From Tepidicaulis marinus (GTDB lineage: Bacteria > Pseudomonadota > Alphaproteobacteria > Parvibaculales > Parvibaculaceae): a DNA stretch of 64,000 nt. The stretch is taken from the NCBI RefSeq assembly GCF_000739695.1, contig NZ_BBIO01000002.1, positions 62,001-126,000 of the forward strand. Direction: 5' to 3'. The notes below the pieces were generated by a model. It saw only the letters and a program-made list of their open reading frames with translations. It was not told the DNA's origin and did no database searches. A program made the translations under genes and the position numbers. Each line of letters opens with the position of its first letter. Within the stretch, counting starts at the first letter, position 1. This document shows, one piece after another, positions 37,409 to 41,167 of the stretch.

Positions 37409-37795
37409 ATGTCTCACTCTGCAAACGCCGCCTCATCCAGCAGTCCCCTTGCAGCCATCGGCCTTGAACGGATGGACGATTGGCCGAAAGGCGCCTGGAT
37501 CGCGATGATGATCGGCGGGTTCATCGTTTTCTGGCCACTCGGCCTTGCCATTCTCGGTTACATGATTTGGAGCGGAAAAATGCGCGGTTGGAAGAATAGC
37601 TGCAGACACGCGGGCAGCCGGCACCGGTCCCGCCCGACAGGCAATACTGCCTTCGATGCCTACCGGGAAGAAACCCTGAAACGGCTCGAAGAAGAGCAGC
37701 ACGCCTTCGAAGAATTTCTCGACCGCCTGCGCCGCGCCAAGGACGAGAAGGAATTCGAGGACTTCATGGCCTCGCACAAAGAACAAAGTGCTTAA
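37409..37795 (+). CDS. DUF2852 domain membrane protein
   Basis: 128 aa. The DDWPKGAWIAMMIGGF segment and one long hydrophobic stretch (about 29-54), followed by a basic region and a charged C-terminal coiled coil (about 85-125, EETLKRLEEEQHAFEEFLDRL), match the DUF2852 family of alphaproteobacteria. The function is unknown. ATG 37409 follows ACGGAGGACACCC. It is monocistronic, bracketed by two strong terminators. Confidence 0.9.
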   Translation: MSHSANAASSSSPLAAIGLERMDDWPKGAWIAMMIGGFIVFWPLGLAILGYMIWSGKMRGWKNSCRHAGSRHRSRPTGNTAFDAYREETLKRLEEEQHAFEEFLDRLRRAKDEKEFEDFMASHKEQSA

Positions 37796-37846: not shown

Positions 37847-38297
37847 TTAGCTTGTGGGTGTGGACTGAGCGGAGGTAACGGGTTTAGGTGTCTTTTCATT
37901 TACATTTGCCACCGGATCTTGCGGTACAAGCGTAATATTCACCGGGCTGGTGTACTTATTATCTGCGCCAGAAGCGGAATCGATCGCCCAACCGATCCCC
38001 CCACCCAAAATCACATTACCAACCGTGGCACCTGCCACATCCGACTTGTTAAAGTAGCTTGCTTCTTGATAACCGTCTTTCAGGCAAACTATCGTAATGT
38101 CGTGTTTTGTTTTCCGAATAGTGACGGCGCCTGGTGTCGGGGACACACGCCCAATAGCGACCCCTTCCCGTTTCAGCTCACAATTCGCACCGGTCGGATT
38201 TGTGTTCACCACAATCTCCTGCGATGTGCCTTCAATGATCGACGAGCACCCCCCCCAAAAGGAAAGTCGCTGCAACAACGGCAAAAATAGTTTTCAT
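37847..38297 (-). pseudogene. frame-broken PEGA-like lipoprotein gene (G8 run)
   Basis: From ATG 38297 the frame reads MKTIFAVVAATFLLGG and then runs into a stop (GVLVDH*), because a run of eight Gs (minus strand; 38249-38256) is one base too long. With seven Gs the frame would continue as LLGGCSSIIEG, a perfect lipobox, into a 149-aa lipoprotein. The downstream frame is intact: IVVNTNPTGANCEL, VSPTPGAVTIRKTKH and a glycine-zipper-like GNVILGGGIGWAIDSASGA, resembling PEGA-domain outer-membrane lipoproteins. The good codon content of both parts points to a recent slip, phase variation or a sequencing error rather than old decay. About 52% GC over 37921-38220 by hand count. Confidence 0.8.
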
Positions 38298-38369
38298 GGA
38301 ACCCCCAAGATAGAATTGGAAGTTTCAGCTTATAGATAGAAAATTACAAAGAAAACTGAATCTTTTAGC

Positions 38370-41045
38370 TTACTTCGTTTCTGCAATTTTTCTGAGCGCG
38401 TCCGACAGCTTGGCCTGTTTGACCAAAGCGTCTTCCCGGCGCTCGCGCTGTTCCTCGACCACATGTTCCGGCGCCTTGGATACGAACTTCTCGTTCGCCA
38501 ATTTCTGATCGATTTGCTTGATGTCTTTTGCAAGCTTGTCGATTTCCTTTTTCAGCCGGTCCATTTCCGCGGCCAAGTCCATGACGCCGGCAAGCGGCAG
38601 CAGGATCGCCGCTTCATCGAAGACGATCTGCACCGAGCCCTTGGGTGCCGGGCCGTCCAGCACTTCGGCGCTTTCAAGGCGGGCAAGCCGCGTGATGATG
38701 TCTTTATGCCGCTCGAGCCGGGCAAGGCTCGTTTCATTTGCGCCGGAGATGAGCAGCGGAATTTTCGCGCCCGCCGGCACGTTCATTTCCGCCCGCACCG
38801 AACGTATATCGGTGATAAGGCGGATCACCCAATCCATCTCGCTTTGCGCGGCCTCATCGGTGAGCCCTTCCAGCGCGGGCCAGTCGGCCACGATAAGCAT
38901 GCTGGCGCGCGGTGCGCCGGTCTCGCCCGTGCGCTGCCAAAGCTCTTCGGTAAGGAAGGGCATGAAGGGATGCAGCAGTTTCAAAATCTGATCGAGCACC
39001 CAGGCCGCCGTTGCCCGCGTTTCCGCTTTCGCTACGTCATCATCACCGTTCAGAAGCGGTTTTGAGAATTCCACATACCAGTCGCAGAAGACGTTCCAGA
39101 CGAAACGGTAAAGCGCGCCCGCCGCCTCGTTGAAGCGGTAGCCCTCAAGCTCTTCGGTCACCTTGCGCGCGGTCTGTTCGGCCTCGCCCACGATCCAGCG
39201 GTTCAGCGTGTGCTTGACGGTACCCGGATCGAACCCTTCCTGGCGCACGCATTCGTTCATCTCGCAGAAGCGGGCGGCGTTCCAGAGCTTCGTGCCGAAA
39301 TTGCGGTAGCCTTCCACCCGGCTGGTCGCAAGTTTGATGTCGCGGCCTTGCGCGGCCATCGCCGCCAGCGTGAAGCGCAGGGCATCGGCGCCGTATTCAT
39401 CGACAAGGCTCAACGGGTCGATGACGTTGCCTTTCGACTTCGACATCTTCTGGCCCTTCTCGTCGCGGACAAGGGCATGGATATAGACATCGCGGAACGG
39501 CACTTCTTTCATGAAGTGCAGCCCCATCATGATCATCCGGGCAACCCAGAAAAAGATGATGTCAAAGCCCGTGACGAGCACGCTCGTCGTGTAATAGCGC
39601 TCGAGCTCCGGCGTCTTGTCCGGCCAGCCGAGCGTCGAGAAAGCCCAGAGCCCGGATGAGAACCAGGTATCGAGCACGTCCGGATCGCGCGTCAGCTCGG
39701 TTTCCTTGCCGTAATGAGCCTTGGCAAGCGAGGCGGCTTCCGCCTCGTCATAAGCAACGAAGATTTCCCCGTCCGGCCCGTACCAGGCCGGGATCTGATG
39801 CCCCCACCAAAGCTGGCGGGAAATACACCAGGGCTGAATGTTGCGCATCCATTCAAAGTAAGTCTTTTCCCAGTTCTTCGGCACGAAGCGGGTTTTGCCC
39901 TGCTCGACCGCTTCCACGGCGGGTTTGGCGAGCGTTGCCGCATCCACATACCACTGGTCCGTCAGCCAAGGCTCGATCACCACATCCGAGCGGTCGCCAT
40001 AAGGCACCTGCAAGGTGTGATCGTCGATCTTTTCCAGAAGCCCGAGCTCGTCGAGATCGGCAACAATGCGCTTGCGCGCCTCGAACCGGTCGAGCCCCTG
40101 ATATTTCTCCGGCACGTTTTCGTTCAGTTTCGCATGCTGATCGAAAATATTGATCATCGGCAGATCGTGGCGGCGGCCGACTTCAAAGTCGTTGAAGTCA
40201 TGGGCGGGCGTGATCTTCACCGCGCCCGAACCCTGTTCCGGGTCCGCATGTTCATCGCCGACAATAGGAATGAGCCGGCCGACCAGCGGCAGCACGACGT
40301 TCTTGCCGATCAGATGCTTGTAGCGCTCGTCTTCCGGGTTCACGGCAACGGCGGTGTCCCCCAGCATGGTTTCGGGCCGCGTGGTGGCGACGGTGATGAA
40401 CGTGCCCTCCTCGCCTTCTACCGGATAACGGAAGTGCCAGAGGCTGCCCTTCGTTTCCTTCTGCACGACTTCCAGGTCCGAAATCGCGGTCAGGAGTTTC
40501 GGGTCCCAGTTCACAAGCCGCTTGTCTTTGTAGATGAGGCCGTCGCGGTAAAGCTCGACGAAGACTTTCAGCACCGCCTTGGAGAGCCCCTCATCCATGG
40601 TGAAGCGCTCGCGGCTCCAATCACAGGAGGCGCCGAGGCGGCGCAGCTGATTGATGATCGTGCCGCCGGATTCGCCCTTCCACTGCCAGACGCGCTCGAC
40701 AAAGGCCTCGCGGCCCATATCATGCCGCGTCACATTCGCGCCTTCCGCCGCCATTTGGCGCTCGACCACCATCTGGGTTGCGATACCCGCATGGTCGGTG
40801 CCCGGCTGCCAGAGCACGTCCTTGCCGCGCATACGCTCGAAACGGATGAGGACATCCTGCAGCGTGTTGTTGAGCGCATGCCCCATATGCAAGGAGCCCG
40901 TCACATTGGGCGGGGGAATGACTATGCTGTAGGTAGGCGCGCCCTCGCCCGCTTTGCCCGCGCCGGCGCGAAACGCCCCGCTCTCCTCCCAGGCCCGGTA
41001 AAGCCGTTCTTCGGCCTCTTGCGGTTGGTAGGTCTTGTCCAGCAT
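38370..41045 (-). CDS. valS: valyl-tRNA synthetase
   Basis: 891 aa class I synthetase. The HIGH-type motif is [17 protein letters not shown] and the KMSKS site is [18 protein letters not shown]1 editing domain lies between them, and the C-terminal coiled coil (about 820-891, [19 protein letters not shown]) is present. ATG 41045 (MLDKTYQP) has ACGAGGACG upstream; an in-frame TTG at 41063 is unlikely. It follows popZ after a hairpin terminator. Confidence 0.97.
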
Positions 41046-41167
41046 GTCGTCCTCGTTGCTCAAAAAGCTGCGTGAAAAACAGGATGCGGAGCCTCATCCG
41101 CAATCATGAAAGGCGCGCCCGGTTTAGAGCACAGCCGCCCGAAGGCATCAAGCATGGCAAAGAAAAG

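Follow-up and report, generated by a model that had tools for sequence, protein, structure and literature searches.

A run of eight Gs lies between the signal peptide and the mature domain of a conserved lipoprotein gene in Tepidicaulis marinus

In the poly-G and poly-C contingency loci of Campylobacter, Bordetella and Neisseria, a G tract is found near the start of the reading frame for an exported protein, and changes of a single base flip that frame. Tracts at such loci are typically longer than chance predicts, polymorphic between strains and recurrent in the genome. Those of Campylobacter, which is without functional mismatch repair, mutate at 1e-4 to 1.6e-3 per division with an insertion bias at G8, and settle mainly at G9-G10 (PMC8355987). 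Candidate tracts in Bordetella were picked for exceeding chance (PMC1891110). Frame breaks were also treated in the GeneTack survey of frame transitions, where homology-confirmed singletons were mainly considered sequencing errors or indel mutations (PMC3711429).

We analyzed a window of 64,000 nucleotides from Tepidicaulis marinus (contig NZ_BBIO01000002.1, positions 62,001 to 126,000) in which a lipoprotein gene is interrupted by a G tract. As in contingency loci, the tract falls in the first part of a reading frame for a predicted exported protein; in contrast to them, it is found in one genome, where long tracts are rarer than expected by chance. The gene also resembles the singleton frameshifted genes and recent pseudogenes of the GeneTack survey (PMC3711429), with one homopolymer break, none conserved in relatives, and homology that continues beyond the break. 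Its product is like the CSSIIEGTSQ-type alphaproteobacterial lipoproteins, remote to PEGA (PF08308), with which it shares the lipobox Cys, a conserved mature domain and a GNxxLGGGIGWAIDSASGADNKY stretch, although here the signal peptide lies in another frame.

Frame structure at the G8 run

Eight consecutive Gs on the minus strand (38256-38249) follow the signal peptide encoded from ATG 38297 (Table 1). Translation from this start yields MKTIFAVVAATFLLGG, then VLVDH and a stop, while the frame beginning at the Cys codon (38248) is open for 133 residues to a stop at 37847. The run divides the signal peptide from the lipobox Cys, and a different run length would unite both frames. An earlier note on this DNA, made from the sequence alone, had described this split of signal peptide and mature lipoprotein at 38249-38256 and had correctly placed the lipobox at the run. 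It put the stop after about 20 codons, for which our count is 21, and its 149-residue lipoprotein agrees with the 16 + 133 residues of the two parts. Translation from an in-frame TTG (38284, also just downstream) was considered and rejected, as it would place MPLLQRLSFWGG before the Cys and leave no usable signal peptide.

Table 1. Features of the lipoprotein locus, in window coordinates.
Feature	Position	Strand
G8 homopolymer at the frame break, between signal peptide and lipobox Cys	38249..38256	-
Signal-peptide part of the lipoprotein gene, from ATG 38297 (MKTIFAVVAATFLLGG)	38249..38297	-
Short frame as written, 21 codons and stop	38232..38297	-
Mature lipoprotein frame, 133 residues and stop, opening with the lipobox Cys and not in frame with its own start	37847..38248	-
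Valyl-tRNA synthetase-like gene (valS), conserved upstream neighbor and locus anchor in relatives	38370..41063	-
Small conserved convergent gene, downstream, the other locus anchor	37409..37795	+

A tract of this length is not improbable as such. Dinucleotide shuffles of the window gave 4.6 G8 runs on average where one is seen, and 55.7 G6 runs where 14 were found. The meaning of the run lies in its position within a conserved gene and not in its length. Another G-rich element, a Shine-Dalgarno-like G5 run (38302-38306, minus strand), precedes the ATG at a position common to family relatives. In those relatives (L009-L022) the site comprises 4-7 Gs located about 4-11 bases upstream of the start codon, and the count varies between close species (six in L010, seven in L009).

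The lipoprotein family and its locus in relatives

The lipoprotein has homologues (32-81% identical) across Alphaproteobacteria, and the lipobox is unbroken in nearly all of them. The mature protein was matched in 21 of the 61 genomes searched, counting its own, with identities reaching 74%. In public records from Alphaproteobacteria, relatives are encoded at 48 loci (Parvibaculum, Nitrospirillum, Niveispirillum, Inquilinus and many MAGs). In the alignment 27 positions are invariant, among them the lipobox Cys and the glycine-rich stretch ending in ADNK. This conservation shows the lipoprotein gene to be genuine. More distantly, a relative with 33% identity over 109 residues is encoded by a small number of enterobacterial phages (Salmonella phage epsilon34 and Escherichia phage Gally among them).

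The nearest Pfam family is PEGA (PF08308), which scored 14.9 bits against a gathering cut-off of 20.8 and was matched at E <= 0.01 by 5 of 25 homologues. No match was obtained in NCBIfam and no relative by sequence search of the PDB; PHROGs returned one family, PHROG 6823, whose function is not assigned there. An AlphaFold model built on 25 sequences was confident in a beta core alone (mean pLDDT 68.5), and Foldseek against the PDB gave weak matches only, nothing better than E = 0.013. Because PEGA fell below its cut-off and the structure searches yielded no firm relative, we give the product only the safe description of a predicted exported lipoprotein with a small beta domain.

Signal peptide and lipobox are present in the relatives, where the lipobox carries at most six Gs and mostly three or fewer. 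The six-G cases come from three species of one genus (g3), and in these an A or C closes the run before the Cys codon. The long run is therefore special to this genome. The comparison of run lengths that the earlier note had proposed showed intact frames in nearly all homologues read, and a tract that is neither conserved nor longer elsewhere. The case also raised there, a frame that is broken in every relative and has gathered mutations, is ruled out, as nearly all carriers are intact and this copy is otherwise undamaged. In one MAG homologue (L076:2729-2911), a stop lies shortly before the lipobox part and the frame has just 61 codons, which may be a broken copy or a MAG error.

The gene lies between a neighbor that we take to be valS, a name based on sequence features, and the convergent gene of Table 1. 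In the sister species the lipoprotein gene is cleanly missing at the same locus: the flanks are about 92-96% identical in DNA, and a short, different intergenic stretch separates valS from the convergent gene. Two species of another genus (G019 and G024) keep the gene beside valS, which makes an old presence at this locus, followed by loss in the sister species, probable. Absence from the sister species and a match in just 15 of 36 other family genomes mark the gene as dispensable in this lineage.

Long G runs and assembly quality across the genome

The longest G runs of the genome are G8, of which it has seven. This is below the number expected by chance, and among 40 family genomes it ranks toward the bottom for long G runs. 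It has 63 tracts of at least seven Gs. By a classification on codon usage about 35 lie in genes, and two of these break their gene. Besides the lipoprotein run, the breaking tract is a G7 in an OmpR-type response regulator (contig C40:98110-98116; L130, about 1501-1507) flanked by genes for a degP-like protease and a histidine kinase. In six relatives from four genera the run in this regulator is interrupted and the frame intact, and the remainder of the broken copy is nearly identical to the protein of the sister species. The one remaining G8 that falls within a gene, of LysM type, leaves the frame intact.

None of the 13 in-gene A8/A9 tracts is broken. We also searched 180 kb around the locus, covering 117 genes with a third-position excess and about 346 homopolymers of 5-7 bases, for real-looking split genes relative to the sister species and found none. 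With no break at A8/A9 and none in the 180 kb, the assembly therefore looks sound. A generally frameshift-rich assembly is not supported, as the split genes flagged were on inspection antisense artefact frames or start-region effects. The frameshift census represents a sample of genome stretches, and a raw indel listing between both genomes was left out as alignment noise. The lipoprotein G8 itself lies far inside a 283 kb contig.

Since 2 of about 35 in-gene G tracts break genes, versus none at A8/A9 or in the 117 genes, long in-gene G runs are local hot spots where bases slip or are miscalled. Breaks at long G runs are what both genuine slippage and miscounting would produce. A split in the other direction was seen in the sister species, where a one-base difference near G001:C2 475017 (L173) divides what is here a gene of 1300 codons (C45:57958-61861).

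Age and origin of the break

To gauge constraint, the terminal branch of this copy in a tree of 24 homologues was compared at codon positions 1+2, where it is short and without excess (0.075), and position 3 (2.39). The resulting ratio is among the lowest of the 24 genes, and is a rough measure given that position 3 is saturated. Relaxed constraint in the mature domain was not detected in this tree, and a search of the 133 mature codons revealed no other stop or frameshift. Purifying selection thus acted on the coding sequence up to the very recent past, or acts on it to this day. As would be expected of a recent pseudogene, the frame is disrupted, orthologues elsewhere are intact and the gene is dispensable in its lineage; unlike recent pseudogenes of the GeneTack type, it shows no further lesions or relaxed constraint yet. 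From the unrelaxed mature domain it follows that the break is either very recent or an assembly miscount.

The frame break most likely has an ordinary cause. Our preferred reading, with a probability of about 0.47, is an accidental and very recent slip that left a null allele in an often-lost gene, rather than an evolved switch. Ordinary substitutions would have built an uninterrupted G run over both lipobox glycine codons, and replication slippage would then have altered its length to give G8 and the null allele. A signal peptide would be made, translation would end 5 codons later, and no lipoprotein would be exported. We infer that the slip arose in the cell and not in sequencing, and that it is without function. 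Against this, sequencing error would look much the same, with both genes broken at the tracts hardest to count and conservation downstream of each break otherwise perfect. It is a real possibility that the run was miscounted in sequencing or assembly, in which case the strain's true run would keep the frame and the lipoprotein would be made normally. A mature domain free of other lesions or relaxed constraint fits a miscount, as does the second conserved gene broken at a long G tract, the regulator beside the degP-like gene. In the GeneTack survey, moreover, a homology-confirmed singleton frameshift was likelier a sequencing error than a genuine indel (PMC3711429). However, the 117 genes and about 346 short homopolymers without a real frameshift, the intact A8/A9 tracts, the in-frame G8 of the LysM-type gene and the position of the run deep inside its contig all argue for a correct count.

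Slipped-strand phase variation, with the run as an evolved contingency locus toggling the lipoprotein on and off, seems unlikely. The tract is well placed for it, between the signal peptide and mature part of a predicted exported protein; G8 runs mutate at useful rates in mismatch-repair-deficient Campylobacter (PMC8355987), and expression in Bordetella correlates with single-base C7/C8 differences (PMC1891110). Yet the tract is not kept with length variation among homologues in other species, and long G runs are neither longer than expected nor enriched in this genome. In addition, mutS and mutL are present as intact, open frames, and the other gene broken by a G tract encodes a response regulator, not a surface protein. 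In the literature collection searched, no paper combined Parvibaculum with phase variation. Of the three options in the earlier note, the OFF phase is thus poorly supported, whereas recent decay, as a fresh slip, and a base-count error both fit. We hold it more doubtful still that G-tract switches are being born in this lineage, the lipoprotein and the response regulator each having just gained a slipping G run; this would represent contingency-locus evolution at an early stage, in an alphaproteobacterium that is free-living and whose mismatch-repair genes are intact. Least probable is a partial bypass, in which slippage on the G run during transcription or translation would allow some lipoprotein to be made. 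Slippage at homopolymers can in principle bypass frame breaks; known bacterial cases mostly involve A/T runs. No relative is broken at this site, which speaks against a conserved mechanism, and a programmed frameshift was rejected on the same observation.

For annotation, this locus offers both a caution and an aid, as a well-conserved protein is disrupted by a single base within the longest G-run class of this genome. Calling such a gene phase-variable requires conservation of the tract, or reads. If the slip is real, the two G-tract breaks would show that accidental G runs can rapidly disable conserved genes despite intact mutS and mutL.
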